Shown: positions 4,493-34,211, counted from the stretch's first letter. The stretch: 40,422 bases of DNA from Armatimonadota bacterium (GCA_020060775.1 JAGUZN010000045.1:1-40422); one strand, 5' to 3'. Numbers and translations: made by a program. Notes: generated by a model from the sequence alone, not told the origin.

Positions 4493-4494
4493 GA

Positions 4495-8789: not shown

Positions 8790-9254
8790 CTACCTCCACC
8801 ACAGCACAACGGCAGCTATGGCGCAGCCGATGCGCTCGACTTTGTGCTCGGACGAAAAGACCAGGAGTTCGTCCAGCTCCAACCCGCGTTGGGCAAAGCC
8901 CTCGCGAACCATGCGGCTGACCGTATCCTCCACGGCAGCACGGGACCCTCCCGTATTCTCAAAAATCATACCGTGCCCATCCTTGCGCAGGCCAACGCCC
9001 ACCGCGGCGGCAACCACGTCGCCCGGGGTATCGCTGTATTTCACGGTGTACACCGTGGGCACCAGCGCGCCCGCCTCAATCGCGGGGCGCTCCTGCAGCA
9101 AGGTCACATTCGCCGGGACGATGCTGCTCAGTTTGATCAGGTTCAGATTGCCGATGCCGGCAGCCAACAAGGCGTTATCGAAGGCGTTCAACTCGGTCAC
9201 GCCCTCGGCGTGACCGGCGGTCGGCCAAATGCAATCCGGTGTCGTCCAACGCAC
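8790..9254 (-). CDS. pdaD: pyruvoyl-dependent arginine decarboxylase
   Basis: 154 residues from a GTG at 9254, preceded by AGGAG 8 nt upstream. NLIKLSSIVPANV (38-50) is the self-processing site, with cleavage between S43 and S44 to make the N-terminal pyruvoyl group of the alpha chain. GMIFENTGG and the C-terminal AIAAVVLWW also match PdaD. The family converts arginine to agmatine in archaea and some bacteria. It starts the operon pdaD-speD-speE-agmatinase and so feeds agmatine to the last gene. The Ser-Ser processing site appears intact. Confidence 0.9.
   Translation of the reverse strand: MRWTTPDCIWPTAGHAEGVTELNAFDNALLAAGIGNLNLIKLSSIVPANVTLLQERPAIEAGALVPTVYTVKYSDTPGDVVAAAVGVGLRKDGHGMIFENTGGSRAAVEDTVSRMVREGFAQRGLELDELLVFSSEHKVERIGCAIAAVVLWWR
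8792..8797 (-). promoter_or_regulatory. ribosome binding site that fixes the TTG start of speD
   Basis: GGAGGT on the minus strand, overlapping the last codons and stop (AGG TAG) of pdaD. It stands 6 nt before TTG 8785. Confidence 0.7.
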
Positions 9255-9730
9255 GGCGGTGACTCCTGCTACAGCAAAATACTGCCGACATCAGATGAAT
9301 CGGCAAGGCGACCCCGGCTTCCACCACACCATGCAGCCCCCAGTAAGCGCGCGAAAGCACCACCCCCGAGGTGGCCCCAGCCTTCTTTCAGGCCAGTGCT
9401 GGCAATGTTCCAGCCAACCCAAGATATGGTGCTTTTGACTCTCTTGCCCCAAACAGCAAGAGCAGGCACTGATTGTCAATGGAAGCCCATAACGGGCACG
9501 CGACAAGAAAAGAGTATACAGGAAAGGCGTCGATTACGCTAGTGGGTAGAAAATTTTTTTCACAATTATTTCCACAGGGGCGGCAACCCGCACGTCCGGC
9601 GGAAAATGTGCCCCTCCTCTCACAACGCCGCAGCATGTCCCCCACCCCTTCCGGAACAGCGATGAGCACGACATCGTCGAGCGAGTGCACGTGGTACACT
9701 GCCAGGGACATATCATCGGAGGCAAATGCC
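9255..9730. other. 476-nt divergent intergenic region between the polyamine operon and the hydrolase gene
   Basis: No convincing gene. The minus strand has a TATACT at 9518-9513 that would give pdaD a leader of about 250 nt. That leader holds small hairpins: CTCTTGC/GCAAGAG at 9441-9462 (7 bp, 8-nt loop) and CCACC/GGTGG near 9361-9375. A homopolymer stretch of A then T lies near 9551-9560. On the plus strand TGGTACACT (9692-9700) is a candidate extended -10 for the hydrolase. I do not recognise a known riboswitch here. Confidence 0.5.
9692..9700 (+). promoter_or_regulatory. candidate extended -10 for the secreted hydrolase gene
   Basis: TGGTACACT, with TG one base before TACACT. No good -35 is seen 17 bp upstream. 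The start codon is 31 nt further on. Confidence 0.35.
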
Positions 9731-10597
9731 ATGCGGTGTTGGGGCATGCTCATACTGCTGCTCCTGTGGACTGGCAAGGGGCTCGCACAGTCGCCTGTAC
9801 GCTATGATGTTGAGGTCATGCACGGCCTGACGTATGCCACGCGGGATGCCCAGCCATTGCTCCTCGACCTCTACCGCCCCCTTATGGCGCGAGGGCCACT
9901 CCCCTGGGTGGTGGCGGTGCACGGTGGTGCCTGGCTGGGTGGTGACCGGGAACAAATGAAACCGCTCGGCATGTTGCTGGCCGCGCGCGGGTATGCCGTG
10001 GTGGCCATGGACTACCGCCTCGCCCCCGACCACACTTTTCCCGCCCAATTGGACGATGTTCGCGCTGCGGTGGCGTGGGTCCGCGGACGTGCGGCGCATT
10101 ACCGGATTGCCGCCGGAGCAGTGTCTGCGATCGGTTTTTCCGCCGGAGCACAACTGGCGGCGCTCCTTGGGGTGAACCCAGAGCCCGGCACGCCCGAGGT
10201 GCGATGCGTCATTGCCTTCTTCGGTCCGATGGACCTCACCGTGCCCATCACGAGCCTGCAAGCGGAATTGGTGCTGCGCGCGTACCTGGGATGCCGGCAG
10301 CACGAGTGTCCTGCCCGCTATGCTCAGGCGTCGCCCGTGACCTTCATCACCCCCGACGATCCACCATTTCTTCTGCTGCATGGCACGAATGATACTATCG
10401 TCCCCTTTTCCCAATCCGAGCTGATGCGCGAGGCATTACGCGCGGCCAACGTGTCCGTCACCTTCGTGCCGATGCCTGAGGTCGGTCATGCCATTCCCGC
10501 GTCCAATACCCCGCTCGGCCAGCAGGTTGAGCATCAGGTCCTCTCCTTTTTGCATGCGTGTGCGGCTGACGTCGTGTGCATCCCGGCGCAACCCTAA
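9731..10597 (+). CDS. secreted alpha/beta hydrolase, BD-FAE/carboxylesterase-like
   Basis: 288 residues from the ATG at 9731, with GGAGG at 9718-9722. The long upstream extension of the frame has no family features. The N-terminus MRCWGMLILLLLWTGKGLAQ is a signal peptide ending near residue 20. HGGAW (64-68) forms the oxyanion hole and GFSAG (135-139) holds the nucleophile Ser137. The Asp of HGTNDTIVP and the His of VGHAIP complete the triad. This is the esterase/lipase group that includes BD-FAE feruloyl-esterase-like enzymes. The natural ester is unknown; a plant or polysaccharide acyl ester is plausible given the carbohydrate locus downstream, but that is inference. Confidence 0.85.
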   Translation: MRCWGMLILLLLWTGKGLAQSPVRYDVEVMHGLTYATRDAQPLLLDLYRPLMARGPLPWVVAVHGGAWLGGDREQMKPLGMLLAARGYAVVAMDYRLAPDHTFPAQLDDVRAAVAWVRGRAAHYRIAAGAVSAIGFSAGAQLAALLGVNPEPGTPEVRCVIAFFGPMDLTVPITSLQAELVLRAYLGCRQHECPARYAQASPVTFITPDDPPFLLLHGTNDTIVPFSQSELMREALRAANVSVTFVPMPEVGHAIPASNTPLGQQVEHQVLSFLHACAADVVCIPAQP

Positions 10598-10616
10598 AAG
10601 ATTTTTCGCTGGCCTA

Positions 10617-10645
10617 TTGACGCCCATCAGCATTTTCCCTATACT
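10617..10645 (+). promoter_or_regulatory. sigma70 promoter of the tRNA-Trp/tRNA-Asp pair
   Basis: TTGACG (10617-10622), exactly 17 nt, TATACT (10640-10645). It lies 20 nt after the hydrolase stop and about 90 nt before the first tRNA. Confidence 0.7.
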
Positions 10646-10736
10646 AAAACCCGTCGTCAGGGGCAACCTTCTCTCTCGGAAGTGTTTCGATGTTGCACCC
10701 AGATGACCTTCGGTCTCAACATTCGAGACACCGCGT

Positions 10737-10812
<76 letters not shown>

Positions 10813-10828
10813 TGACGACAACAGGCGC

Positions 10829-10907
10829 GGAGCCGTGGTGTAGCCAGGTTTAACACACCGGACTGTCACTCCGGAGATCGCGGGTTCAAATCCCGTCGGC
10901 TCCGCCA
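10829..10907 (+). tRNA. tRNA-Asp (GTC anticodon)
   Basis: Acceptor GGAGCCG (10829-10835) pairs with CGGCTCC (10897-10903). The anticodon stem CCGGA/TCCGG encloses CTGTCAC (anticodon GTC). The T-loop TTCAAAT is canonical. Discriminator G is followed by encoded CCA. It lies 16 nt after tRNA-Trp and is probably on the same transcript. Confidence 0.96.
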
Positions 10908-11025
10908 TCCCACCCCTTGAGCATCCACCGATTACCCAACTCCCGGTCGGCACTACGACTTGATTGCCATTGCAGGTGCTTCAATGACATTCGCTGTCGT
11001 GGATGTACGTTGCCATCCCTTGCTG

Positions 11026-11053
11026 ACAGGAGGTGCTATCACTCGCCTCCTGT
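11026..11053 (-). terminator. 8-bp hairpin directly after the LacI-family gene
   Basis: ACAGGAGG (11026-11033) and CCTCCTGT (11046-11053) with a 12-nt loop; the distal arm touches the stop codon. No U-tract follows, so the terminator role is tentative. Confidence 0.4.
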
Positions 11054-12063
11054 TATCGCTTGGGCGGAGCGCAGGACTGTCGGATGATGAGTTTAGGCTG
11101 GTAGAGGACGGTGCGCGGCTCGCGTTCAGCAGGATTGGTGGCCTCCTTCAAGCGTTGAAAGAACACCTCTGCGGCATCGGCGCTCCAACTGGAAATGCCC
11201 GTGTCAATCGAAGTGAGCGGGGGTGTACACAGTTCACATAAATCGGTATTGTCGCATCCCAGCACGCTCAAGTCTCTTGGAATACGCAACTGCAAATCGC
11301 TGGCCGCCTTCACCACTTTATAGGCATCCGTATCGCTCATAGCGATGATGGCAGTGGGTGGATTGACGCTTTTGAGCATGGCAGTCAACGTTTCGATGTA
11401 CGTTGGCTGTTCCCGATCAAGGAATAACGCCTCATGCAGGCCGTAATGCCGGAACGCTTTCTGCATCGCCAGGGGGTGTCCGGCGACAATGCCGTGGGAT
11501 AAGCAGCCGATAAAGGCGATCTTCCGGTGTCCTATTCTGGTGAGGTACTCCAACGACATCAACGCTAGCGCATCGTAATCAACGCTCACGCGATCGACGG
11601 GAATTTCTGTTGGAGTCACATCGGCGGCGACCAGCGTGATGCCGCGGCTCCAGAGATCCCAGATGGCCTCCCGTGTAATTGGTTCGTAGAAACCGCTGTG
11701 CACCAGCACCCCCCGCACCTTCAAGTCACACGCCGCCAGCAAAGCGCGCTGCACATGCACAAGCTGATTATGCGTTTGCAGGATGGCCAGGGTGTACCCG
11801 TGCGACAGCGCCCGTTCGGATACAGCCGCCACCAGCGACGAATCACTATCGGCGAGCAATCCCGGCAAGATGCAGGCTACCGCGTTGAAATCGGCTGGGG
11901 CACTGCGCTGCGCATAAGGGGGAAGATCACACTGGTATAACGAGGCCAGTTCGAGGATGCGCCGTCGGGTGTCCGCACTCACCCGGCCGGTGTTGCGCAA
12001 GGCGCGGAACACGGTGGTGGACGAGACGCCGGCCAATTGTGCAAGCTGCTTCATCGTGGTCAT
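11053..12063 (-). CDS. LacI/GalR-family transcriptional regulator
   Basis: 336 residues. The first ~50 form the LacI helix-turn-helix: MKQLAQLAGVSSTTVFRALRN, with the usual VSxxTVxRxL recognition helix. The rest is a periplasmic-binding-protein-like effector domain (VRGVLVHSGF; RIGHRKIAFIGC; PTAIIAMSDTDAYKVV; DLSVLGCDNTDLCELCTPPLTSID). AGAGGTGAT precedes the ATG at 12063. It lies downstream of the GH2 glycosidase in the same direction with its own promoter. The likely role is sugar-responsive control of the glycosidase locus, and of itself through the palindrome at 12137-12150. The effector is unknown. Confidence 0.93.
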   Translation of the reverse strand: MTTMKQLAQLAGVSSTTVFRALRNTGRVSADTRRRILELASLYQCDLPPYAQRSAPADFNAVACILPGLLADSDSSLVAAVSERALSHGYTLAILQTHNQLVHVQRALLAACDLKVRGVLVHSGFYEPITREAIWDLWSRGITLVAADVTPTEIPVDRVSVDYDALALMSLEYLTRIGHRKIAFIGCLSHGIVAGHPLAMQKAFRHYGLHEALFLDREQPTYIETLTAMLKSVNPPTAIIAMSDTDAYKVVKAASDLQLRIPRDLSVLGCDNTDLCELCTPPLTSIDTGISSWSADAAEVFFQRLKEATNPAEREPRTVLYQPKLIIRQSCAPPKR

Positions 12064-16207: not shown

Positions 16208-17007
16208 CGACTTACATCCTCCCCCGGTTGTCGTATCTGCACCCCGATGCCTTTCACACGGGCATCGAGGCATGCGCTCATCGTCCAATATCCCCCTGGG
16301 GTTACACCAGCCTGCGTATACGCAGCGGTAAACGCCTCGCTGCGCGCGTAGTCGGCCAGCGTATTCTTCACGGTCAGTCGGAGATGGTTGGTTCCATTAT
16401 TCAGCATGATTTGCGGAATCGTGATCGTCCACGGCTTCCACAAGATAGCGCCAACCGGTCGGTCATTGATCTCGACTTCGGCCAGGTGGTTGAGTTCTGA
16501 CAGCTCAAGTTGTACATCACCATGCACCTCCCAGGTAAATGTTCCCTCGTAAATGAGGGTCCCACTAAATGTGCGTGCAGTGATGCGCTGTTGTGTCTCA
16601 TCGAGTGGTATTTCGTTGCGCGAGAATTCACTCGCCTCCCAGGAAACGCTGCTAGCGCCGACAAGTGTCAAATCGGCGATCGCAATCGGAGCAGGAACAG
16701 CCGCAGGTGAGTCATCAAGCAGACAGGCAATCTCCCTCGGCAGTCGGGCGCGATCCCCCACCCACAGGAGTAGACTTGAGGTTTCAGCAGGAATGGAATA
16801 CGTCTCGCCCTGGTGACGTACGAACGTCGCGTCATTGGCTGTTTTGACATACCATTCACACGTTCCGGCTGCTGCCTGTACGTGCACAGTGCCGTTGAAA
16901 TCGTGTTCGGTGCTGTCGTTGAAGAGAAACACCAGACCATTCTGCGCATCCAATTGCCGGCGGTGAAAGCGCAACGGCGCTTGGCTGGAATATCTAATAT
17001 CGGGCAT
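16204..17007 (-). CDS. C-terminal part of a frameshifted GH106-like glycosidase
   Basis: 267 residues in the -1 frame relative to the upstream fragment. It opens MPDIRYSSQAPLRFHRRQ and contains NGLVFLFNDSTEHDFNGTV. It ends in a jelly-roll typical of large plant-polysaccharide glycosidases (FSGTLIYEGTFTWEV; LAEVEINDRPVGAILWKPW; NHLRLTVKNTLADYARS). These pieces normally follow the barrel in one polypeptide, so this is the displaced tail of the 18731-16668 frame. GGGGAG at 17013-17018 stands 5 nt before the ATG at 17007, so separate translation is possible. Its stop overlaps the URO-D-like start. Confidence 0.75.
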   Translation of the reverse strand: MPDIRYSSQAPLRFHRRQLDAQNGLVFLFNDSTEHDFNGTVHVQAAAGTCEWYVKTANDATFVRHQGETYSIPAETSSLLLWVGDRARLPREIACLLDDSPAAVPAPIAIADLTLVGASSVSWEASEFSRNEIPLDETQQRITARTFSGTLIYEGTFTWEVHGDVQLELSELNHLAEVEINDRPVGAILWKPWTITIPQIMLNNGTNHLRLTVKNTLADYARSEAFTAAYTQAGVTPGGYWTMSACLDARVKGIGVQIRQPGEDVSR

Positions 17008-18731
17008 AGGCGCTCCCCAAGGTCCCCATAGACCGCGAGTGCATTATCTAACAAGCTGGCCTCAATGTTCCACAATGGATGGCGATACTCCCCCGCGTCC
17101 TCGATCGCCAGTCCGTGCGGCGCCCAGATCTGCGCATGTGCACACGCATCACGCAAAAACTGGCGCTCGTTCTTGTCAGGAAAGATCTGCGCCGGTAAGT
17201 AGATGGTGTCGTACAGCAGCGCTGCCTGCGCGTCATCGGGGCCGAGAATATCCGGCTCGATCCCGCGGTATTCCAGAAACTCCATCAGGCCATCGAAATA
17301 TTCGCTGGCGTGTTCGACATGGCGTGTTTCGTAAGTTGCCGGGGAATACCACACTGCATGTCGGGTTGCGGCTTGCCCCATACTGAGGAGGTGCGCTGTC
17401 GTCGAGAGGTACGTATTGAGTGTCGAGATATACGGATAGTACGGCTGCGGTTCATTGCACCCGTCGAGATACATGAACAGCGAATGTCCTTCGTTGCTAT
17501 AACTGAGAGCGCCGACATTATGGATGGCGATTCCTCGCGAAAAAACAAAATCTGAGAGCCATTTCCGATGGCGCAGCGACCACCCGGCTCCATACACACC
17601 GCCGATTTCAGCGAGTGCCAGGCCCCCTCCTTGTTGCCGTGCGGCACTCGCGGCAAAGCGTGGAAAGTGCCCGTTATAGGCGAGCGCGTTGTACGGCAGA
17701 TCAGGGCTCGGGGGAAAGGCCTCCATATTAGGGTATACTTGCCCGGTTACGATATCAATGCCGGGAATATGGTAGGTTTTCAGTGATGCCGCCAGATTAC
17801 CCGCCGTGTTGGCATGTGCCTCAACACCCTCATCGTTATTGTGGTGTCCGATGAAGAGTACGCCGTGGTCATGACACCAGGCGCGCAAAGGAACGAGCCA
17901 ATGCCGGATCCACATCGTATTGACTAACCGCGCAAACGCCGCACGCACTTCCACCGCATCGGCATCCGCCGGTTCGTCGATCCAGAGTTTCGGCAGATGC
18001 GGGATAATGTCGTAGCCATAGGTGGCCATGAACATCTCCGGTAAAACGCTTGACCATGCCAGCGGTAGTTCAATGAAACCATTAGCTAGCCGGTAATCGG
18101 TACGTACGCTGCCGGGCGTCCCCGGTTCGTCATGGAAAAATGCCGTTATTGTTTTGCCGAAGTCGTCGGCATACCTGTGGTAGTATGCCTCGTGTGTGAT
18201 ATCGAGGAAGGTCTTGCTCGCATCAGGGTGGTACATGTCGATGCGATGGCTGTCTTTGACTAATTCGTACACGAAGTCCGCAGTGCGGCAGAGTTCTCCT
18301 AGCGCAACGGGCTCGTTCATCGTCCCAGTGTGATGCCGTCGTCGGACCATAACTGAATGCAGATCAGGACGCCGCGTGGTAAGTAACCCTCCGGCCCAAC
18401 CCGCCGGACAATATAGATCGTCCCAAATCCAGAGCGCTAGCTGGTGTTGCCTGCATGACTCGACAATAACATCAAACCGCTGGAAGTATTCTTCGGAGAG
18501 ATACGGTTCAGGCGTGTACAACCCTTTTGCTTTCCAGTCGAGGTTGGCGATCTCGGGCGTAATAATGATCGGTAATACCCCGGCGTACTGTTGGGCCTTG
18601 ATCTGGGCAAGCTGACCCCGGATCTTCTCTGGGACAAGGGGAGCATCGACAAACCACATCGGCACGGGCGTCATACCGCGCAAGTTATGCAGGCTGTTCA
18701 CGGCAATAGACTCCCTGACCTGTGGAATCAT
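16668..18731 (-). pseudogene. N-terminal part of a frameshifted GH106/alpha-L-rhamnosidase-like glycosidase
   Basis: 687 codons, but only the first ~575 are family-like; the tail after GDLGERL is out-of-frame reading of the next fragment. The barrel shows TPVPMWFVDAPLVPEKIRGQL, LALWIWDDLYCPAGWAGG and AFFHDEPGTPGS, the pattern of GH106-like enzymes that act on rhamnosides or related plant glycans. Joined to the 16204-17007 frame it would be about 840 residues, the expected size. The shift lies near 17013-17020, where one missing G in a GGGG run would explain it. Starts: ATG 18731 has no good ribosome site; GTG 18701 has AGGGAG 9 nt upstream. No signal peptide is visible. A sequencing indel is a real alternative. 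Confidence 0.72.
17013..17018 (-). promoter_or_regulatory. internal ribosome binding site at the frameshift
   Basis: GGGGAG on the minus strand, 5 nt before ATG 17007. Its G-run (17015-17018) is also the likeliest place of the lost base. Confidence 0.4.
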
Positions 18732-19983: not shown

Positions 19984-22842
19984 CTAGCGTGCTTTAACGC
20001 GCAACACGAGCATCGTGTGATAGCGGAAGGGTGGCACGTCGACCAGCACAGCTCCGTCCTTGACGCGCGCGTCTAATTGCGCCTGCACCGGCTGTTGTGC
20101 TTCCTCAAAATGGTATGGCCGCATGGCATGCGCTTCCTGCACGACACCCGCGCCCGCCTGAACACCGACCGTGACCCCGGACAGCGGGACAGGTTCATCA
20201 ACCCAATTGATATCCCAGCGTTCCGTGGTCGGCGGAATGCGCACCAGGTGCACGATCAGGTCATACCCCTGGTCCGTCTCGCGCCGATAGACAAAACGCT
20301 TCCACCATACCTCCTCGGGCGTCGTCACGCTGATGACCTGTTCCGCATCGTCCACCACCGCGATATCCGGCGACCAGAGGAAACGCGAGTAGCGCGTCTG
20401 GAATTGCAGGGCGGGGTCGGCGCTCGGCCAGTTATCGGCGATCACGATGTGGTGCTGTGACGCGGTCACCAGCGCCATATAGTAGTTCACCGTCGGCCAG
20501 CCCCACTTCGACACGCCGGGTTTTTCGAGATCCGTGGAGATCGGCGGATAGACGTAGCCGATGATGGCATTGCCGTCGTAGCGCTGTACAATGTAGTCGC
20601 GGTTGTTGCATAGCACATTCAGGAACTCGCTCGGCTTGCGGTCCAGGCCTTCATAACCACCGGTATGGAACGGGATGGACATCTCCATCAAGCAGGAGAC
20701 ATTCTTCCGGCTAAAGACGGCGCGTATCCACGCATCGCTCACATCGCCCTCGGTACCCGATCCCAGAAGGAGGGTGCTGTCAGTGAGGCGGGCGATGGGC
20801 GGCCAGCGATAACTGTGGTTATACCAGGTGCCGAAATACGGATCATCGCCCTTCAATACGCTGTAGTAACGCTCCTGGATGCGGGCATTCAGCCGGGCGA
20901 TCGCTTCGCGGTCTTCCGGGAGATTGCGCTGCCCCTGGTAGTCGTAGCCTAACATTGCGGTCACCGTACCATCGATGAACACGCCGGCGTATCCGGTCCG
21001 TTGGGCGTGCGCTTTGATGCACCGCGCCCCATACTCGACGGCCTTCTCCATGGCGAAATTGGCCGGCGCATGCATCCAGACGGTGTAGGGGCGGTCGAGA
21101 TACGACTTCTTCGCGACGCGCTTCTCGCCCGCCTCGAGTGGTGACCCCAGCACCATCGGATCGGGATACCCCCCATACACCGGATCAACGGCAAATTGCC
21201 CGTTCGGATCGTAGAGGACGTACTCGGGGTGTTTACGCATTTCCTCATAACCCATAATGCCCGAAAAGTGGACGTTCTGATAAAAGGTGGTGTGCTTCCC
21301 TGCCACCTTCCAATGCCGAGCGTACTCCTGCAAGCCACGCGGGCTGATCGGCATTCCGCCCTGTTCGCCGACAATCCGATCAGCCTCATAGGGCTGTATC
21401 CCCCAGGACGTGGGCTCGGCGGAAAACCAGTGCTGCATATTGTTGTAGCGGCCGCCCGAGTGCATCTGCACGCGGAACCATTCCTTCCCGACCTGGTAAT
21501 ACTCCTGCCAGCGGTCGAGCATCGTTCCGGCTTCATCGGTCACTCGCACTTCAAGCGCCTGGCCATACATTTCCGGCCCCACCGTGTAGCGAACCGTCCA
21601 GGCGGATTCCGCCCCCGCCGCGATAGTCAGGCGCTGTTGCGCCACCTCGCGGCCCTGGTCTACGTCGACTAACTGCATAGCCGTCACGGAAACGGTCTGC
21701 TCGGCATCCGTCGTATTGCGAATGACGACCCTGGCGGTCGCCTCTTCCTCTTCCTCATACAGAATCTTGTTCGGCGTGATGCTGGTGATCATCACCGTAT
21801 GAGGTTGTAATGTGCGCACACCGGGGCGGTATTCAAGCGTAGTGGTCGCCTGCGTCGCCTTGACCGGGGCAGGTGGGCTCACCGGCTTCTTGGTCAATGT
21901 GTTCAACACCTGTGTGAGTACGATCATCTCGTTGTAATACGGCACCCGCACCACGGAAAGACCCTCGGTCAACACGTATGGGGCAAGGCGCTGGATCTCC
22001 GTGTCCAGCGAAGCGGCCAACGCGTCATCGAGCGCCGGCTTGGCCTGCCCATAGGCTGTCAGGGCATCACGATACAACCGGACGCGTTCCTGAAAATCCG
22101 CGTCAGCTTTGACCACATCCAGTTGCTCGATCAACGCCCCCGTGCCGTACAGCTCCTCTTCCGCCTGCACGATCAGGTCGAGCGCCGGCGTGGAGGGCAC
22201 GATATCCACGTCGTCGATATCCAGCTTGCCGGTGATGCCCATCCATGGATGCACGTTCCACAACGGTGGAGTTTTCACCAGCAGGTGCCGGTAGCGCACC
22301 CATTGCTGGCTCTCGACTTTCACCGTCCTGTCGGCGGCCGCTTCCCCGGGCGCTGTAAGTTGGATGGCTCTGCCGTCCTCCGCTTTCCCATAGGAGATGA
22401 CATGGAAATTCAATCGGCCGGCTCCGCGCACCCAGGCGGTATACACGTAGTTGCGCTCTTCCAGCGGGAATCCATGGTAGCCGCAGAAATACACCTCGCC
22501 GCTCTTCCCGCTGCTGATCTGAGCGTAACTATCGTTGCCCATGCCGCCGGCATACGGAAAATCCACCGTGCCGTCGTTGGAGAACAGGCTCCACCACAGC
22601 GGCCACTTCCCCGCATCAGGGCACTGCCACCCTTGCTGGCGATAACTCTCCACGACCTCCGCGGTGACGGGGTTGGCGCCGCGCTCGACAAAACCGCCGT
22701 TCCGCACGTGCACCTGTGCCTGGGCTTGGCTCCCGCCTGCGCCGCTCATGCCGAGGAGTGCCGACCACACCCCGATGACCAGGATGCCGAACCGCCACCA
22801 CCTCGGTTCTACCGGGAACAACTTAAATGATCCTTTGTACAT
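19984..22842 (-). CDS. secreted multidomain glycosidase-like protein (CBM-like plus TIM barrel)
   Basis: 952 residues from the ATG at 22842, chosen because GGAGGAG (22849-22855) stands 6 nt before it. One hydrophobic segment (FGILVIGVWSALLGMSGAGG) makes a signal peptide ending near AQAQ. Residues ~45-210 look like a CBM4/9-type jelly roll (NGGFVERGANP at its start, LDIDDVDIV at its end). A coiled helical part, an Ig-like domain and then a barrel follow: FYQNVHFSGIMGYEEMRKHP, and GYAGVFIDG near residue 620 with a possible catalytic Asp. The barrel recalls GH66/GH13-like enzymes, but I cannot name a family. The C-terminal beta domain ends in a HTMLVLRV strand. Likely an exported polysaccharide-degrading enzyme. 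Confidence 0.7.
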   Translation of the reverse strand: MYKGSFKLFPVEPRWWRFGILVIGVWSALLGMSGAGGSQAQAQVHVRNGGFVERGANPVTAEVVESYRQQGWQCPDAGKWPLWWSLFSNDGTVDFPYAGGMGNDSYAQISSGKSGEVYFCGYHGFPLEERNYVYTAWVRGAGRLNFHVISYGKAEDGRAIQLTAPGEAAADRTVKVESQQWVRYRHLLVKTPPLWNVHPWMGITGKLDIDDVDIVPSTPALDLIVQAEEELYGTGALIEQLDVVKADADFQERVRLYRDALTAYGQAKPALDDALAASLDTEIQRLAPYVLTEGLSVVRVPYYNEMIVLTQVLNTLTKKPVSPPAPVKATQATTTLEYRPGVRTLQPHTVMITSITPNKILYEEEEEATARVVIRNTTDAEQTVSVTAMQLVDVDQGREVAQQRLTIAAGAESAWTVRYTVGPEMYGQALEVRVTDEAGTMLDRWQEYYQVGKEWFRVQMHSGGRYNNMQHWFSAEPTSWGIQPYEADRIVGEQGGMPISPRGLQEYARHWKVAGKHTTFYQNVHFSGIMGYEEMRKHPEYVLYDPNGQFAVDPVYGGYPDPMVLGSPLEAGEKRVAKKSYLDRPYTVWMHAPANFAMEKAVEYGARCIKAHAQRTGYAGVFIDGTVTAMLGYDYQGQRNLPEDREAIARLNARIQERYYSVLKGDDPYFGTWYNHSYRWPPIARLTDSTLLLGSGTEGDVSDAWIRAVFSRKNVSCLMEMSIPFHTGGYEGLDRKPSEFLNVLCNNRDYIVQRYDGNAIIGYVYPPISTDLEKPGVSKWGWPTVNYYMALVTASQHHIVIADNWPSADPALQFQTRYSRFLWSPDIAVVDDAEQVISVTTPEEVWWKRFVYRRETDQGYDLIVHLVRIPPTTERWDINWVDEPVPLSGVTVGVQAGAGVVQEAHAMRPYHFEEAQQPVQAQLDARVKDGAVLVDVPPFRYHTMLVLRVKAR

Positions 22843-22861
22843 GGGTATCTCCTCCAAAGCG

Positions 22862-25077: not shown

Positions 25078-26379
25078 TTACATGCCCCACTTCTTTTTCA
25101 GGTAACCGTAGACCAGACCGCGCTCCAGGTCGGAGATGCCGGGAGTGAACATCAGCACTTCGGTCAGATCGCCCTTCATGGGTTGGTAATAGGTCGGCGC
25201 ACTGCCCTCGATACGTATCCCGATAGCATAGCGGTCGAACGGGTAATCACCGTACTCCTGGGACAGGGTACGCGTGTACACGATTTGATCGTCGGTGAAC
25301 ACCCGCTCGACAATCCCCAGGTAGGTGGTGGGATTCACCTCATAGCCGTACATGTGGAAGAGGCCCACGCCAAAGGTGCCCGAAGTAGCGGTGCCGTAAC
25401 AACTCGAGCTGGTTTTATAACCCCACATCGTGTTCGCCACGACCGTCGGCGCGGCCGACAGGCCGCTAACGTAATACAGCACGAGGTGCCCGCCCGAGGT
25501 CCAGTCGCCGGTCGGAGTCGTCCAGTTCTGCAGGACCGCACCATCCGCCCAGCCGGTAGGCGTCGAGGAGATTGGCGCATGCACCGCCAGGAACGTCCAA
25601 CTGTTGTCGATCGACGTGCGCGGGTTCAGCGTGCTGGCGGGCTGCAGGTAGCCGGTGCCGGCAACATCAGCGCGCAGGCGAATCGCCGGCATGGCGCCGT
25701 TCTTGGCCACGCCTACCATGTACTGCGGGCGCGTGCCGGCGGCGCTCGCGCACATCATGTGGTTGCCCTTGCCGCTGGCATCTTTCCAGGTGGTGATCTC
25801 ATCGCCGTTGGACAGACCCGTGAAGTCGTCCGCCTTCAGCTGCATCACCAGGTTGCGCCGCATCGGCAGTTTGTCTGGAGTGATCGACATGATATCGACG
25901 TGCCCGTCGGCAAAGGTGCAGACGAACTTGTTGCTATGGCGGGCATCCAGGTCATCGACGGTGTAGGCCACGTTGTCGTAGGTCACCGGACTGGTGGTGG
26001 CGGCATGCTGGCCGTCCATGGTGAGCAGCGTACCCGAGGGGTCGGAGAGTTCGCCCAGTGTCACGCTGGAAACACCATAGGCGTACACGTAGGCGTTGGC
26101 CACCTTTTTGCCCTTGGTCGGGCACATCAGGATGTTGCGATCGACGCCCAATTGCACCCAGACGTCGGCGTGGTCAGGACAGGTTTCGTCGTGGTCCTGG
26201 GCGTACATTAGAATCGCCACCGCGATCTGCCGCTGATTGTTCAGACAGCTCGATTGCCGGGCCTTCTCCCGTGCTTTCGCGAACACCGGGAACAAAATGG
26301 CGGCCAGAATAGCTATAATGGCGATCACGACGAGCAACTCAATGAGGGTGAACCCTCGGGACTTCGAGCCGTTTCTCAT
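25078..26379 (-). CDS. type II secretion/pilin-like protein with H-x9-DG motif and LamG-like lectin domain
   Basis: 433 residues. [19 protein letters not shown] (from residue 9) is a prepilin cleavage site, G9/F10, plus the pilin helix, and [16 protein letters not shown] follows. H148 with D158-G159 forms the H-x9-DG motif (ARHSN to FADGH). From about 175 the protein turns into a concanavalin/LamG-like sandwich ([31 protein letters not shown]), ending [15 protein letters not shown]. Pseudopilins rarely carry a lectin-like tail of 250 residues; it probably binds carbohydrate at the cell surface. GGGAGG stands 5 nt before the ATG at 26379. It is the first gene of the minus-strand carbohydrate locus. 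Confidence 0.82.
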
Positions 26380-26794: not shown

Positions 26795-29700
26795 GTGACC
26801 ACCTGTGACCAGGAAACGCAGATCGCCACAACGCGCGTTGACCTCCACTGTCACTCCACCTGCAGTGACGGCGCCCTGTCGCCTCGCGAGATGGCCGAGC
26901 ACCTGGCCGCCGGCGAAGTGGTCGCCGCTGCGCTCGTCGACCACGACACCACAGAGGGGTTCGCCGAGTTCAGCCACGCGCTCGCAAGACGGGAGATTGC
27001 CTCCATCCCCGGTATCGAAGTGACCGTGCAATTCCGCGGCAAAGAGGCACACCTGCTGGCCTACGGCATTGACCCGTCCCACGGTGCGTTGCAAGCCACG
27101 CTGTTCGAGTTGCGGCAGGCCCGTGCCGCCGATGTGCAGAGCGTCGTCGAAACGCTGCGTAAAAAGTCGCCCACCCACGAGCACGCCGGCGCCCCCCTGC
27201 CCCCTGGTGGAAAACTCGAGAGCGCGGATGCGATTGCGCTGGTGCACGACGCTGGCGGGCGCGCCTTCCTCGCACATCCGTTGACGCTGACCAACGACCT
27301 CGACGAACTGGAACAACTCCTGATAACACTCAAAGGCCAGGGGCTCGATGGCATCGAAGCGATCTATTCCCCCTACACTGACGAACAGCGACAGCGCCTG
27401 TGCGAAATTGCGAAACGTCTGGGTTTGCTGGTGAGCGCGGGCACCGATGCGCACGACCGCCATGCGCAAGGAGCCAGTGCGGGCATTGACATGCCCACTG
27501 ATCTCTGGAAAGCCTTCCGCGATGCCGTTTACGCCGGCAACCAGCCGGCAGCAAGAGCGACTACGCCCGCGCCGGTACGGGCGCGCACACGCTTCCAGCG
27601 GCGCAAGTTCATCTTCCATTTCGTCTTTCCCTCCTTCCTGGCAGTCGCACTGTTCATCACCGCCATCTACGCGATCATCCTGCCGACCTTCGAGCGCTCA
27701 CTCCTCGATCGGAAGCGCGAGATGATCCGCGAGCTCACCAATTCCGCCTGGAGCATCCTGGCGGGGCTGGAACGGGATGAACGCGCCGGCAGACTCACCC
27801 GCGAGCAGGCTCAGGCCATGGCGATCAGCCGCATCGAGTCACTGCGCTATGGTCGCGAAGGTAAAGATTACTTCTGGCTGCAGGATGAAACACCGCGCAT
27901 CATCATGCACCCCTATCGCAAAGACCTGAACGGTCAGGACGTCGCCAACGTGCGCGACCCGCGCGGCGTCGCCATTTTCGTCGAATTCGCTGAGGTTGTC
28001 CGGCGGGGTGAAGAAGGATACGTCGAGTACGTCTGGCAGTGGAAAGACGACCCCAGTCGCCTGGAGCCCAAAGAATCCTACCTCAAAGGCTTCGAGCCCT
28101 GGGGATGGATTATCGGTACGGGCATCTACATCGAAGACGTCAAAGCGGAAATTCAGCGCATCGAACGCAGCCTGGTGCAGACCTCGCTGGTCATTTCCAT
28201 CATCGTCGTGTTGCTGCTGCTCTATGTCGTGGTGGAAAGTCTGCGTCTGGAACGTGAACGCACTGAGGCCGTGGAAAGCCTGCAGGATTCGACGGAACGA
28301 TACCGTTCCCTGGTCGAAGCCACCACCGAAGGAACGCTGCTGGTCATTGACGGACGCTGTCGTTATGCGAATCCGATCTTCCTCAGCATGGTGGGCGCCA
28401 GCCTGCAGGAGCTTGAACTGCGTGACTTGATCGACCTCTTCCCGGTCAACGCGGAAAACGCCCTCGCCTGGGAGAATCTCAACCGCCTCCTGCAGGGCGA
28501 GGAAATGCGGGAAGGGTTCGACGGCATGCTGCGGCGGCGGGATGGCAAGCTGCTCGAGTGCGTATGCACCGCCAATCGCATCTCCTTCGCCGGGCGCAGC
28601 GGCTTCATCCTGCTGGCGCGCAGCATCGGCCCGACCTCGGGAGCGGAGCGAGTAGCGATGCGCAATGGACACGAGGCGCACCTGCCGCAGGTGGCGGAAG
28701 GAAGCCAGGTTGGCCTCTTCCGCGCGCGCGCCTCCTCCCGCGGCACCCTGCTGGCGTTTAATCCGGCCACGCTGCGCCTCCTGACGACGGCGGATGGGAC
28801 GGATGGCGCGCAGGCGGCGCTTGCCGACCTCTTCCCCACCCCGGCGGAATACGAAGACTTCTACCAGGAATTGCAGCGTGCGGGATCGGCCGAGCGTCAT
28901 CTGCCGGTAACCACTCATGATCCGGGCAGCAGGATGGTCGCGCTCTCCGCCACCCTCACCGTTGATGAACACGGGAAGCCCCGCTACATCGATGGAGTCG
29001 TCGAGGATATCACCCTGCAGCAGCAGCGCGCGGCCGAGCAGGCGGCGGTCATCGAAAAACTACAGACCTCCCTCCTCTTCCTGCATGAGCCGGTGAAACG
29101 CCTGGAAGGGCGCGCGGTCTTCTGCCGGTACGATACGCCCATTCACACCGCCACCGCCATGATGACCGAGCAACGCTCCAGCGCCGCTCTCGTGCAGTCC
29201 GAAGATAGCAGCGTGATCGGCATCGTCACCGATGGCGACATCCGGCAGCGTGTCGTCGCTGCCGATCTCAGCCGGCGTGAACCGGTGCACCGCATCATGA
29301 CCTCGCCGCTGGTGACGATCGACAAGCATGCGGAAATTTACCAGGCGCTGTTACTCATGGAGCAGCGGAATATCCATCACCTCGCCGTCGCCGATGAAAC
29401 CGGACGTGTGACCGGCGTCATTCGCAACCAGGAGCTGCTGCAGTTCCGCAATTACGGGCCGATTGTGCTCACGCGGGAAGTCGAGGGGGCGGCCACGCCC
29501 GAGGAAGTAGTGCGCAACTGCCGGCGCGTGCCGGAAATGGTGCGCGCCCTGCTCGAGTGCGGCGCCCATCCGGAACGCATCACGCGCATGATTTCCGCCG
29601 TCTGCAACGCGGCCACCGTGCGCCTCATCGCGCTGGCGGAAGAAGAGCTGGGCCCCGTGCCGACGCCGTTTGTGTTGCTGGCGCTGGGCAGCCAGGGGCG

Positions 29701-30493
29701 GCAGGAGATGACGCTGGCCAGCGACCAGGACAACGCCATCCTCTACGATCTCCCGCCCGGCGCCGACAACCAGCTACAGGTTGAGGAATATCTGCAGGCG
29801 CTGGGACGCTTCGTCTGCACCTGGCTCGACCGCGCCGGATACCCCCTCTGCCGCGGCGACGTCATGGCGCAGAATCCGCGCTGGTGCCAACCCCTGTCCG
29901 TCTGGAAGCGGTACTTCGGCGACTGGATACAGCGTGCCGAAGCACAGCAGTTGCTGGAATTCAGCATCTTCTTCGACTTCAACCCGCTCTACGGCCCGGA
30001 GGCACTCACGCACGAACTGCGCCGCCACATCGACGACCTGCTGCGCGCCCGCCCCGCCTTCTTCCCCCACATCGCGCAGAATGCGCTCCTCTTCAAACCG
30101 CCAACACGCCTGTTTGGCCGTATCCTCGGCGGCGAGCAACCGGGGCAGCTCGACCTCAAAGATGCCCTCATGCCCATCATCAGCTTCGCCCGGCTCTACG
30201 CGCTCCGCCACGAACTGGAAGCGACGCACACCCTGCACCGCCTGCAGTTGCTGGCCGAAGCCGATGTCCTCACCGAATCGAGCCGACGGGACATTGCTGG
30301 CGCCTATGAGTTCCTCATGCGCCTGCGCCTGCAGCAACAGGCTGCGGCCATCGCCACCGGACAAAGCCCGGACAATCTGCTCAACTACCGCCGCCTCACC
30401 CAGGCTGAACACACCCTCCTCAATCAATCCTTCGCCTTGATCGAAGCCATTCAAAAACGCATCAGCTACGACTTCCTCGGCGGCACCGCCTAA
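26795..30493 (+). CDS. membrane sensor fusing PHP phosphoesterase, Cache, two PAS, two CBS and DUF294 nucleotidyltransferase domains
   Basis: 1232 residues from GTG 26795 (GGGGTGA just upstream). PHP domain 15-247 with its metal ligands: HCH (18-20), D25, VDHD (48-51), GIEV (73-76), AHP (160-162), GTDAH (216-220). Helix 273-297, an extracytoplasmic Cache-type sensor 300-447 (DYFWLQDETPRIIMHPY; GWIIGTGIYIEDVKAEI), helix 461-482, PAS-like 500-610 and 637-745, CBS pair ~770-885, then a GlnD/DUF294-like nucleotidyltransferase with GSQGRQEMTLASDQDNA (965-981) and a DUF294_C-like tail. PHP enzymes split phosphoesters; DUF294 is predicted to transfer nucleotidyl groups. Both ends should be cytoplasmic. 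A two-way nucleotide or protein modification switch driven by an external ligand is my inference. Confidence 0.8.
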   Translation: MTTCDQETQIATTRVDLHCHSTCSDGALSPREMAEHLAAGEVVAAALVDHDTTEGFAEFSHALARREIASIPGIEVTVQFRGKEAHLLAYGIDPSHGALQATLFELRQARAADVQSVVETLRKKSPTHEHAGAPLPPGGKLESADAIALVHDAGGRAFLAHPLTLTNDLDELEQLLITLKGQGLDGIEAIYSPYTDEQRQRLCEIAKRLGLLVSAGTDAHDRHAQGASAGIDMPTDLWKAFRDAVYAGNQPAARATTPAPVRARTRFQRRKFIFHFVFPSFLAVALFITAIYAIILPTFERSLLDRKREMIRELTNSAWSILAGLERDERAGRLTREQAQAMAISRIESLRYGREGKDYFWLQDETPRIIMHPYRKDLNGQDVANVRDPRGVAIFVEFAEVVRRGEEGYVEYVWQWKDDPSRLEPKESYLKGFEPWGWIIGTGIYIEDVKAEIQRIERSLVQTSLVISIIVVLLLLYVVVESLRLERERTEAVESLQDSTERYRSLVEATTEGTLLVIDGRCRYANPIFLSMVGASLQELELRDLIDLFPVNAENALAWENLNRLLQGEEMREGFDGMLRRRDGKLLECVCTANRISFAGRSGFILLARSIGPTSGAERVAMRNGHEAHLPQVAEGSQVGLFRARASSRGTLLAFNPATLRLLTTADGTDGAQAALADLFPTPAEYEDFYQELQRAGSAERHLPVTTHDPGSRMVALSATLTVDEHGKPRYIDGVVEDITLQQQRAAEQAAVIEKLQTSLLFLHEPVKRLEGRAVFCRYDTPIHTATAMMTEQRSSAALVQSEDSSVIGIVTDGDIRQRVVAADLSRREPVHRIMTSPLVTIDKHAEIYQALLLMEQRNIHHLAVADETGRVTGVIRNQELLQFRNYGPIVLTREVEGAATPEEVVRNCRRVPEMVRALLECGAHPERITRMISAVCNAATVRLIALAEEELGPVPTPFVLLALGSQGRQEMTLASDQDNAILYDLPPGADNQLQVEEYLQALGRFVCTWLDRAGYPLCRGDVMAQNPRWCQPLSVWKRYFGDWIQRAEAQQLLEFSIFFDFNPLYGPEALTHELRRHIDDLLRARPAFFPHIAQNALLFKPPTRLFGRILGGEQPGQLDLKDALMPIISFARLYALRHELEATHTLHRLQLLAEADVLTESSRRDIAGAYEFLMRLRLQQQAAAIATGQSPDNLLNYRRLTQAEHTLLNQSFALIEAIQKRISYDFLGGTA

Positions 30494-30832: not shown

Positions 30833-31192
30833 TTACGACAGCATCTGCTTGATCAGTTCACGCAAGCGCATGATGCCCTCCGTCTTGCGCATACAGGCAT
30901 CCGCGCCGCAGGCGGCGCATGCCTCTTCGACGTGGGCATGATTGCTGTAGAGAATGGCCTTCAACCCGGGATACTGCGCTTTCGCAGTGGCAATCAACGC
31001 GTCGCCCTTCATCCCGGGCAAGTCCCAGTCGGCCAGCAACACCGCAAATGGGCCGGCCGCCAGTTGCGCCAGCGCGTCATCGGCGGTATCAGCCGTGACG
31101 ACGGTATACCCGGCCAGCATGAGCACCTGCACAAACAGGGCGGCTTGCTCACGATCATCTTCGACCAACAAAATGCGTTGTGTTTCAACCAT
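30833..31192 (-). CDS. single-domain response regulator (receiver only)
   Basis: 119 residues from ATG 31192; earlier in-frame starts would overlap the promoter at 31224-31252. Receiver fold: RILLVEDDREQAAL with the acidic pair, VLLADWDLPGMKGDAL with phospho-acceptor Asp55, ILYSNHA with the Ser switch, and CMRKTEG with the conserved Lys. The Pro that normally follows this Lys is replaced by Thr. There is no output domain, so it must act on a partner protein. It is divergent from the five-PAS kinase, its likely partner. The segment DWDLPGMKGDALI is close to one in the receiver at 39215-39589. Confidence 0.85.
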   Translation of the reverse strand: MVETQRILLVEDDREQAALFVQVLMLAGYTVVTADTADDALAQLAAGPFAVLLADWDLPGMKGDALIATAKAQYPGLKAILYSNHAHVEEACAACGADACMRKTEGIMRLRELIKQMLS

Positions 31193-31223
31193 AGCGGACG
31201 GCCAGCCCTTCCCTTCGGCGCAC

Positions 31224-31252
31224 ATCATAGCATATCGCGCCGCATGTGTCAG
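31224..31252 (-). promoter_or_regulatory. sigma70 promoter of the small receiver gene
   Basis: Minus strand CTGACA (31252-31247), 17 nt, TATGAT (31229-31224). The predicted leader is about 25 nt. Confidence 0.6.
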
Positions 31253-31358
31253 ACCACTCGTGATACAGTTGTGTGTAATCTTTGATGGGGCTACAGACCA
31301 GACAGGAGTCACGCCCGATTTCGGTGAACAGAGGTGGTGCTTGGAAAGAGGTGCCAAT

Positions 31359-34211
31359 ATGACCGACAATCAGCATAACGCCTACGACGACACACACCTG
31401 GCACAACAACTCATCGCCTTCCGCCAACAGTTGGAACGTGAAGGCGTGGCGGTGGAAATCGATCAAGATGCCCCGTTGGCGGAACAGCTGGCCCGGCTCC
31501 AGGATGTGGTGCTGCACCGCCTTGCGCGATATCGCGAGCGAGTCGCTGCCGGCCAACAGACCGAAGAAGCCTTGCATCGTAGCCGCACCCTCCTCGCTGA
31601 AGCTGAACAGCTCTCCCATACTGGCGCCTGGGAGTGGGATCTAAGCACGAGTCAATGGACCTTCTCCGATGAGTGGCTCGAAATTCACGGCGCAGCGCGT
31701 CGCACACTGGCTCCTGACGAACTCCTCGCTATCGCCCACCCGGACGACCGCGCGCGCATCGAGCAGGCTTTCCAGGATGTCCGCCTGGGCGTCAAGTCGT
31801 ACGAACTGGAGCACCGCATCATCCGCCAGGACACCGGCGAAGAGCGTGTCGTCAAGTCACGTGGACAATTCGTGCGCGACGCCGCCGGTGCAATCGTGCG
31901 CGTCTACGGCTTCGTTCAGGATATCACCGAGCAAAAACGCGCGGAAGAAGCCCTGCGCGAAAGCGAGGAACGCTTTCGCACGCTCTTTGCCAATATGACG
32001 GAAGGCTTCGCGCTGGGCGAGGCGATCTGCGATGACCAGGGTCGCTCGGTCAACTTTCGCTTCCTGGAAATTAACGACGCCTTCCTCCGCCAAACCGGCC
32101 TGCCGCGCGAGGTGGTCGGCAAGCCCATCACCGAAGCGCTGCCGAATTTAGAGCCCGTCTGGATCGAACGCTACACCAACGTCGCCATGTCCGGCGAACC
32201 GATCCGCTTCACAGAATACAACACCGACACCCAACGCTATTATGATGTCTACTGCTACCGTCCTGCCCCCGGGCGCTTCGCCATCCTCTTCCGCGACGTC
32301 ACCCATCTACGCTTCACCGAAGAGGCCCTCCGCGAGAGCGAGGCAAAATTCCGCAGCATTTTCGAGCAAGCGGCGGTCGGCATCGGGCGCGTGCGCTTCG
32401 AAGACGCACGCTGGATCGATGTCAATGACGCCTTTATCCGCATGGTTGGGTACAGTCGCGAGGAATTACTTAGCACGCCATGGCCGCAGATCACGTATCC
32501 GGAAGACATCGATATCGATCTGGTCCCCTTCCGCCAGATGGCGGCGGGCGAGCTCGAAAATTATAGCGTGGAGAAGCGCTTCATCCATAAGCAAGGCCAT
32601 CTCGTCTGGGCGCGCCTGACACTGTCGCTCGTGCGCGATGCACAGGGACAACCGGCATACGAGATTGCCATCATCGAAGATATCACCGACCGTAAGCAGG
32701 CCGTGGAGACCTTGCGTGAGAGCGAGGAGCGGCTCACACTCGCGCTTGATGCGGCGGGTCTCGGCACATGGGACCTTGATCTGACCACCGATGTGGCGGT
32801 CCGTTCCCTGCGCCATGACCAGATCTGGGGATATGCCAAGCCGCAGGCCGAGTGGGGGAAAGCGCGTGCGATGGCGCAGGTGCCGCCCGAAGATCACCCG
32901 CGTATCGTGGAAGCATATGCGCGGGCATTTAAAACCGGCGTACTTCACCATGAGAATCGTGTGATCTGGCCGGACGGCAGCGTCCATTGGATTGCGGCAG
33001 ATGGTCGAATCCAATGGGACAGCGAAGGCCGTCCTGCTCGTATCATCGGAGTGGTCGCTGACATCACCGACCGCAAGCGCGCCGAAGCGGCTCTGCGTGA
33101 AAGCGAAGCTCGTTTCAGCGCCGTCGCCAACAACATGGCGCAACTCGCCTGGATCACCGACGAAACGGGCTGGATCGTCTGGTATAACAAACGCTGGTAC
33201 GACTACACCGGCACCACCTTCGAGGAAATGCAGGGGTGGGGCTGGCAAAAGGTACATCACCCCGACCACGTGCAGCGCGTGGTGGAGAAGTTCAGACACG
33301 CCATTCAGACCGGCACGTTCTGGGAAGACACCTTCCCGCTGCGCGGCAAGGACGGGCAATACCGCTGGTTCCTCTCCCGCGCTATTCCGATCCGCGACGA
33401 ACAGGGCAAGGTCGTGCGCTGGTTCGGCACCAATACCGACATCACCGAATTACGTGAAACCCAACAGCAATTGCAGGACCTCACCACCACCCTCGAACAA
33501 CGCGTGCAGGAGCGCACAGCCGCGCTGGAATCCACGAATAAAGAACTGGAGGCCTTCAGCTATTCCGTCTCGCACGACCTGCGCGCACCCTTGCGCAGCA
33601 TCGACGGCTTCAGCAAAATCCTGCTCGAAAAATACCGGTCGCAGGTGGATGAGACCGGCCGGGACTACCTGCAGCGCGTGCGCAATGCCGCCATGCGCAT
33701 GGGACGCCTGATCGATGACATGCTCAACCTCTCGCGCATCGGCCGGCGCGAGATGCGCCGGGACACCGTGAACCTGAGCGACCTCGCCGCTGCCGTGCTG
33801 ACCGACCTGCGCGGGCGCGAGCCGGAGCGCCAGGTGCTCGTGGAAATCCAACCGGAGATGCTGGTCAATGGCGATCCCGGCCTGCTGCGCATCGTCATGG
33901 AGAATCTGCTCGGCAATGCCTGGAAGTTTACCAGTAAGACAGAGGGCGCCCGCATCGAAGTCGGCATGAGGATGCAGGAAGGTCGACGCATCTACTACGT
34001 GTGCGATAACGGCGCGGGGTTTGACATGTCTTACGCCGATAAACTCTTTTCTCCTTTCCAACGCCTGCACAGCGAGGATGAATTCCCCGGCACCGGCATC
34101 GGTCTCGCCGTCGTGCAGCGTATCATCACCCGCCACGGCGGCCATGCCTGGGCCGAAGGCGCCGAGGGCAAAGGCGCCACCATCTACTTCACGCTGGGAG
34201 AATCGGCATGA
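31359..34211 (+). CDS. soluble histidine kinase with five PAS domains
   Basis: 950 residues from ATG 31359 (AGAGGTG 5 nt upstream); the longer frame to 30954 lies antisense to the receiver gene. No membrane helix. Five PAS/PAC units at about 77-198, 203-325, 328-448, 455-578 and 582-703, most closed by a D-I-T-(D/E) segment and joined by repeated E-A-L-R-E-S-E linkers. Then a coiled coil (TLEQRVQERTAALEST), HisKA with His739 in SYSVSHDLRAPLRS, and HATPase with NLLGNAWKF, DNGAGFDMSYADKLFSPF and GTGIGLAVVQRI. The C-terminal half is the phytochrome-type kinase module, near-identical in style to the next gene. It has no receiver, so it should phosphorylate the separate receivers nearby. The stop overlaps the next start (ATGA). 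Confidence 0.9.
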   Translation: MTDNQHNAYDDTHLAQQLIAFRQQLEREGVAVEIDQDAPLAEQLARLQDVVLHRLARYRERVAAGQQTEEALHRSRTLLAEAEQLSHTGAWEWDLSTSQWTFSDEWLEIHGAARRTLAPDELLAIAHPDDRARIEQAFQDVRLGVKSYELEHRIIRQDTGEERVVKSRGQFVRDAAGAIVRVYGFVQDITEQKRAEEALRESEERFRTLFANMTEGFALGEAICDDQGRSVNFRFLEINDAFLRQTGLPREVVGKPITEALPNLEPVWIERYTNVAMSGEPIRFTEYNTDTQRYYDVYCYRPAPGRFAILFRDVTHLRFTEEALRESEAKFRSIFEQAAVGIGRVRFEDARWIDVNDAFIRMVGYSREELLSTPWPQITYPEDIDIDLVPFRQMAAGELENYSVEKRFIHKQGHLVWARLTLSLVRDAQGQPAYEIAIIEDITDRKQAVETLRESEERLTLALDAAGLGTWDLDLTTDVAVRSLRHDQIWGYAKPQAEWGKARAMAQVPPEDHPRIVEAYARAFKTGVLHHENRVIWPDGSVHWIAADGRIQWDSEGRPARIIGVVADITDRKRAEAALRESEARFSAVANNMAQLAWITDETGWIVWYNKRWYDYTGTTFEEMQGWGWQKVHHPDHVQRVVEKFRHAIQTGTFWEDTFPLRGKDGQYRWFLSRAIPIRDEQGKVVRWFGTNTDITELRETQQQLQDLTTTLEQRVQERTAALESTNKELEAFSYSVSHDLRAPLRSIDGFSKILLEKYRSQVDETGRDYLQRVRNAAMRMGRLIDDMLNLSRIGRREMRRDTVNLSDLAAAVLTDLRGREPERQVLVEIQPEMLVNGDPGLLRIVMENLLGNAWKFTSKTEGARIEVGMRMQEGRRIYYVCDNGAGFDMSYADKLFSPFQRLHSEDEFPGTGIGLAVVQRIITRHGGHAWAEGAEGKGATIYFTLGESA

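Follow-up and report, generated by a model that had tools for sequence, protein, structure and literature searches.

The gene at positions 26795-30493 (+ strand) of a 40,422-nucleotide stretch of DNA from an Armatimonadota bacterium (JAGUZN010000045.1; the whole stretch is referred to as the window) encodes a 1232-amino-acid (aa) protein in which a PHP phosphoesterase domain and a DUF294 nucleotidyltransferase domain are joined through a Cache sensor. We propose, with a probability of about 0.47, that this protein is a transmembrane receptor governing monocarboxylate use through reversible nucleotidylation of a target, which is probably a protein. More specifically, acetate, propionate or pyruvate, as a C2/C3 monocarboxylate, would bind the Cache domain outside the cell. 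The signal would then be relayed across the membrane to two PAS domains and a CBS pair, the latter probably reading adenine-nucleotide status. The signal would set the balance between the DUF294 nucleotidyltransferase, adding a nucleotidyl group (adenosine monophosphate, AMP, or uridine monophosphate, UMP), and the PHP domain, removing that same group; the target would most likely be a protein involved in taking up or assimilating monocarboxylates. We infer ligand binding, catalysis by both domains, their antagonism, and the protein nature of the target; the pairing, the predicted folds and the genomic context speak for two antagonists under the control of monocarboxylates, one adding and one removing the nucleotidyl group.

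The open reading frame (ORF) starts with GTG, is open over its full length, and seems to stand alone, its neighbours (25078-26379 and 30833-31369) lying on the opposite strand. From the N to the C terminus, the order is PHP–transmembrane segment–sCache_2–transmembrane segment–PAS–PAS–CBS pair–DUF294–DUF294_C, with the following coordinates and sources of evidence:

26795-30493, + strand: whole gene, encoding the 1232-aa PHP-sCache_2-PAS-PAS-CBS-DUF294-DUF294_C protein (ORF, Pfam, homologues)
26831-27583, + strand: PHP phosphoesterase domain, residues 13-263, with nine predicted metal ligands (Pfam, alignment, model, fold search)
27602-27694, + strand: first transmembrane segment, residues ~270-300, preceded by a basic stretch (hydropathy)
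27707-28165, + strand: extracytoplasmic sCache_2 sensor, residues 305-457, with 7/7 PscD pocket residues (Pfam, alignment)
28160-28255, + strand: second transmembrane segment, residues ~456-487 (hydropathy)
28295-28624, + strand: PAS domain 1, residues 501-610 (Pfam)
28700-29053, + strand: PAS domain 2, residues ~636-753, divergent (weak PAS_9 match, conservation)
29105-29455, + strand: CBS pair, residues ~771-887 (Pfam, model)
29522-29941, + strand: DUF294 nucleotidyltransferase, residues 910-1049, with the motif G965-S-x-G-R-x-E...D977-x-D979 (Pfam, alignment, model)
30056-30475, + strand: DUF294_C helical domain, residues 1088-1227 (Pfam, model)

Pfam scores were 148 bits for DUF294 (cut-off 21), 122.6 bits for DUF294_C (cut-off 22.5), 124 bits for sCache_2, 59.5 bits for the two CBS domains, 43.5 bits for the first PAS and 35.8 bits for PHP (residues 16-88; cut-off 26.4). 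The second PAS gave a weak PAS_9 match below cut-off and is kept, in divergent form, in relatives. Membership in the DUF294 family is indicated by PF03445 and PF10335, both above the curated cut-off, together with an intact catalytic motif, and membership in the PHP family by PF02811 and the complete set of predicted metal ligands. Because two hydrophobic segments flank the Cache domain, PHP and all parts after the second helix should be cytoplasmic. The 1232-aa frame is conserved over its entire length in other genomes (48-63% identity), and the ORF and its architecture are thus real rather than a product of chance. The first-pass annotation, made from sequence alone, had placed PHP before the first helix, Cache outside the cell, and PAS, CBS and DUF294 inside, and had suggested profile searches and structure prediction as checks; Pfam, in which PHP, sCache_2, PAS, CBS, DUF294 and DUF294_C all scored above cut-off, and hydropathy bear this layout out.

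Both active sites appear complete. The nine predicted PHP metal ligands (H18, H20, D25, H50, E75, H86, H161, D218 and H220) and the nucleotidyltransferase motif are present and, like the Cache pocket, are kept in nearly all aligned relatives, confirming the metal-complete PHP domain and the GlnD-like motif of that annotation. D1061, which we take to be a possible third carboxylate by analogy with GlnE, is likewise invariant in a 41-row alignment. AlphaFold yielded confident models with the expected folds (mean predicted local distance difference test scores of 90.4 for PHP and 91.8 for CBS-DUF294-DUF294_C). In Foldseek searches, the nearest solved folds of the PHP model were the PHP domain of RNase AM and the AMP/phosphate-bound Chromobacterium violaceum structure 2yb1; matches to the NCBIfam equivalogs for RNase AM (105/375 bits) and nucleoside 3',5'-bisphosphate phosphatase (123/400 bits) stayed below cut-off. 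For CBS-DUF294-DUF294_C, the top PDB matches were GlnE (1v4a, 3k7d) and DrrA (6yx5), such that the predicted nucleotidyltransferase resembles enzymes that adenylylate proteins. DUF294_C shares a Pfam clan with GlnD_UR_UTase and HEPN (PMC3710099). One paralogue (locus L024, identical to L038) has lost the PHP ligands H86 and H220 as well as the second Asp of DxD; in no other copy are PHP ligands missing, and in no other copy is that Asp missing.

Relatives that lack PHP mostly have another phosphoesterase nearby. We examined 76 loci with PHP or DUF294 (43 PHP-fused and 33 PHP-less) and sought partner genes by a six-frame hidden Markov model scan; simple ORF calling missed several in GC-rich contigs. 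A calcineurin-like or CbiR-like gene was adjacent in 26/33 PHP-less versus 0/43 PHP-fused loci (Fisher p = 5e-12 for loci with both flanks, rows not being independent), and no other partner was found within 1.5 kb in the 43 PHP-fused loci. These 26 partners comprised calcineurin-like MPE-A (19), calcineurin-like MPE-B (4) and CbiR/AP_endonuc_2-like TIM barrel genes (3). Most calcineurin-like genes were encoded on the strand of the DUF294 gene and began no more than ~80 bp from it; the CbiR-like genes were convergent and hence weaker evidence. L046 has a DEDD RNase_T gene whose end lies 25 bp upstream, and L078 a calcineurin-like gene on the far side of the symporter; with these two counted, 28/33 PHP-less loci have a separate phosphoesterase-type gene. 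All partner labels together changed 8-9 times on the tree, a quick one in which the placement of some long rows is unsure. PHP as a separate adjacent gene was seen in none of 80 loci. Because PHP is swapped for other phosphoesterases and both sites have decayed in L024/L038, the functions of PHP and nucleotidyltransferase appear to be linked. The suggestion in the first-pass annotation that PHP plays the opposing part of the HD domain of GlnD is thereby strengthened, albeit through indirect support.

No evidence was drawn from a strict motif regular expression for calcineurin-like enzymes, which did not work in every row. In L046, a cNMP (cyclic nucleotide)-CBS-DUF294 protein (9008-11335) that has apparently lost DxD, and may be a pseudo-nucleotidyltransferase, lies beside the RNase_T gene and an intact Cache-DUF294 gene. 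Two alphaproteobacterial RNase_T proteins (L119:6833-8812 and L120:6455-8236) have long N-terminal regions with apparent hydrophobic segments, suggesting that here the exonuclease, not the nucleotidyltransferase, might carry a membrane sensor.

The Cache domain points to the class of ligand. Its best PDB relatives are PscD (5g4y) and the acetate-bound 4k08. PscD contacts propionate through Tyr90, Trp92, His103, Phe126, Tyr143, Trp145 and Lys156 (PMC5062169), which map by alignment to Y359, W361, H372, F395, Y412, W414 and K426, identical at 7/7 positions. Because all seven propionate-binding residues are conserved, the ligand is likely a C2/C3 monocarboxylate. Y359 and W361 were part of the peptide pattern used to fetch loci, and their conservation in L028-L107 is partly due to selection; no such selection applies to the 291-genome set of the phylum. 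The NCBIfam model MctS also matches, below cut-off; MctS is a Cache-histidine kinase that regulates the pyruvate/alanine/lactate permease gene mctP (PMC9100948).

Genes for monocarboxylate uptake recur in the same neighbourhoods. A sodium:solute symporter (SSF) gene of the sodium:monocarboxylate type lies within 5 kb in 53/76 loci, mostly upstream on the same strand and often accompanied by a DUF485/DUF4212 subunit, and the nearest models of these symporters are ActP/MctC/VC_2705. Among the 291 genomes of the phylum, both genes occur in 7, the PHP-DUF294 gene only in 8, the SSF gene only in 3 and neither in 273 (p = 2e-8, uncorrected for phylogeny); in G208, G259 and G290 the two are same-strand neighbours. 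The window symporter, which resembles in type the ActP/MctC-like symporters next to homologues and is probably a functional partner of the PHP-DUF294 protein, belongs to the following pair:

2516-4492, - strand: sodium:solute symporter (SSF), 658 aa (Pfam, homologue neighbourhoods)
4495-4800, - strand: DUF485 small membrane protein paired with the SSF (Pfam, homologue neighbourhoods)

In the window symporter and that at L032:8027-9916 (629-658 aa), the ActP/MctC models match two stretches with an apparent ~130-aa soluble insert between them. A conserved DUF485 Tyr ('YK.RLG') was considered as the modified residue and rejected, as it is found in many subunits but is not universal, being absent in Spirochaetota and some others. 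Exactly one in-frame TAG is present in each of two genes on contig G259:C319 (L012), those for the PHP-DUF294 protein and for the symporter; sequencing error, decay or recoding may be the cause.

Orthologues were found in 15/291 genomes of the phylum (own included; 48-63% identity; three cut by contig ends) and, within this set, in no other genome of the same class. A Pfam DUF294 search of these genomes gave 15 strong matches (E <=2e-35), all in ORFs 1147-1351 aa long, which fits the PHP-DUF294 architecture, the next matches being at ~1e-10 and weaker. A misbinned contig was ruled out, the neighbouring spermidine synthase gene being 85-87% identical to that of same-family genomes. The same domain order occurs in metagenome-assembled genomes (MAGs) of Chloroflexota, Spirochaetota, Cloacimonadota, Latescibacterota, Bacillota and Verrucomicrobiota. 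Bacteroidota, Ignavibacteriota, Thermodesulfobacteriota, Bdellovibrionota, Lentisphaerota and others have a Cache-PAS-(CBS)-DUF294 form without PHP. All these taxa are taken from MAG titles, which can be wrong for single contigs. The first-pass annotation knew of no described protein with this order; we likewise found no description in the literature searched, yet the architecture itself is recurrent across phyla. The likely ligand class, the symporter linkage, the exchange of phosphoesterases and the link to CrbS/R-regulated nucleotidyltransferase/exonuclease operons go beyond that annotation.

Those operons have been studied in pseudomonads. In Pseudomonas putida, the genes for a CBS domain protein (pp_0354) and an RNase_T (pp_0353) share one operon under the acetate/pyruvate regulator MxtR/ErdR. 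The pp_0354 promoter is bound by ErdR, and growth on pyruvate is slowed by loss of pp_0353, mxtR, erdR or actP-I (PMC9927547). PFLU5625, with cAMP-binding, CBS and nucleotidyltransferase domains, is predicted to act by nucleotidylation (PMC5715377).

Several observations weigh against a nucleotidylating receptor that controls monocarboxylate use. The window SSF-DUF485 pair (2516-4800, - strand) lies 22 kb from the gene on the opposite strand, and the eight genomes of the phylum with only the PHP-DUF294 gene have no close symporter homologue at the cut-off used. Deletion of pp_0354 gave no growth phenotype on acetate or pyruvate in P. putida (PMC9927547), nor did deletion of pflu5625 on acetate (PMC5715377). 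Five PHP-less loci, two of them truncated, have no identified partner. With 2 changes on the tree, the PHP-fused rows are essentially one clade, and 0/43 does not stand for 43 independent events. Finally, only predictions, and no enzymatic activity, are reported for any DUF294 protein in the literature searched.

Three other explanations were considered. PHP and nucleotidyltransferase may be two separate outputs of one receptor, PHP merely clearing AMP, adenosine 3',5'-bisphosphate (pAp) or a by-product. This is unlikely: the PHP family does include AMP/pAp phosphatases (NCBIfam NF041577, below cut-off; 2yb1 with AMP and phosphate), but several phosphoesterase types replace PHP beside the same nucleotidyltransferase and both active sites decayed jointly in one paralogue, although a shared by-product would also fit either observation. 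Less likely again, the nucleotidyltransferase would make a small nucleotide second messenger, which the PHP, calcineurin-like or DEDD partner would degrade, with Cache setting its level. Some Pol-beta-type nucleotidyltransferases do synthesise messengers, nucleotide phosphodiesters are possible substrates for every partner type, and the product could be sensed by the CBS pair. The solved folds nearest to the model, however, belong to GlnE and DrrA, which adenylylate proteins; DUF294_C falls into one group with the C-terminal domain of GlnD/GlnE (PMC3710099); and the recurring neighbourhood clusters, as far as annotated, included no recognisable messenger-receptor gene. Between the second messenger and the protein modification that the first-pass annotation had both named, the GlnE/DrrA-like fold of the model leans towards a protein target, and it is mainly this resemblance on which that preference rests.

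The least probable of the three is RNA modification, in which the nucleotidyltransferase would extend RNA ends and PHP (RNase AM-like) or a DEDD exonuclease would trim them, so that a membrane sensor would control translation or mRNA stability. The nearest relative of the PHP domain is indeed RNase AM, a 5'-3' exoribonuclease, the Pseudomonas partner is an RNase_T for which its authors speculated on mRNA decay (PMC9927547), and the DUF294_C clan includes HEPN domains (PMC3710099). The calcineurin-like and CbiR-like partners, however, are not typical RNA trimmers, and the nucleotidyltransferase fold resembles protein adenylyltransferases. Moreover, the two nucleases attack opposite ends, RNase AM the 5' end and RNase_T-type enzymes the 3' end, and would not remove the same RNA tail. 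We favour reversible nucleotidylation of a protein. Somewhat more tentatively, we suggest a widespread, undescribed class of transmembrane receptors that control monocarboxylate uptake in this way; its members would all keep the nucleotidyltransferase but differ in the removing enzyme, exchanged among unrelated folds (PHP, several calcineurin-like types, a CbiR-like TIM barrel and a DEDD exonuclease).

Elsewhere in the window, a response-regulator gene (30833-31369, - strand) is convergent with the PHP-DUF294 gene and is followed on the + strand, up to 39220, by a multi-PAS histidine kinase, a dCache-HAMP kinase and a receiver-PAS kinase. Two large ORFs without Pfam match (16668-18731, 687 aa; 19984-22857, 957 aa) lie in a glycoside-related region (GH2, LacI, URO-D-like).

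DUF294 proteins are widespread, yet no assigned biochemical function was found for them in the literature searched; the pairing of nucleotidyltransferase and phosphoesterase, together with acetate/pyruvate-type symporters and a carboxylate sensor, suggests a concrete, testable one. If true, carboxylate Cache receptors would have a new output besides kinases and chemoreceptors, and an explanation would be offered for the unexplained CrbS/R targets PP_0354/PP_0353 and the pyruvate phenotype of the exonuclease mutant.

Parts of this arrangement are found in known systems. GlnD shares the GSxGRxE...DxD-type motif, a related C-terminal helical domain and a metal-dependent removing domain in one chain; however, GlnD is a soluble enzyme that removes the group with an HD domain and senses through ACT domains (neither HD nor ACT was matched by Pfam in the 1232-aa protein), whereas here PHP, a transmembrane Cache, PAS and CBS are present. 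GlnE is the closest solved fold of the nucleotidyltransferase part, but adds and removes AMP with two nucleotidyltransferase-fold domains, in contrast to one DUF294 and one PHP. RNase AM/YciV-type PHP phosphoesterases and 2yb1 are the closest PHP relatives by sequence and fold, yet are stand-alone enzymes. MctS/MctR likewise pairs a Cache sensor with a monocarboxylate symporter gene (PMC9100948), its output being a histidine kinase rather than a nucleotidyltransferase/phosphoesterase. The CrbS/R (MxtR/ErdR) regulon operons (PP_0354/PP_0353, PFLU5625) share a CBS and nucleotidyltransferase core, a phosphodiesterase-type partner and an acetate/pyruvate and ActP context (PMC9927547, PMC5715377), PP_0354 being likened by its description as a CBS protein and the nucleotidyltransferase domain being described for PFLU5625. 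These modules differ in being soluble, in having a cNMP-binding domain in place of the transmembrane Cache, and in encoding the exonuclease separately; their CBS-DUF294-DUF294_C core is present in the 1232-aa protein, which has no cNMP-binding domain, and no RNase_T was matched among the window genes submitted to Pfam. On annotated plasmids, the order DUF4212-symporter-DUF294 occurs in Skermanella, Paracoccus and Agrobacterium; in Paracoccus and Agrobacterium, an RNase_T protein is encoded two or three genes further along. On Vibrio and Hymenobacter plasmids, an exonuclease gene adjoins DUF294.

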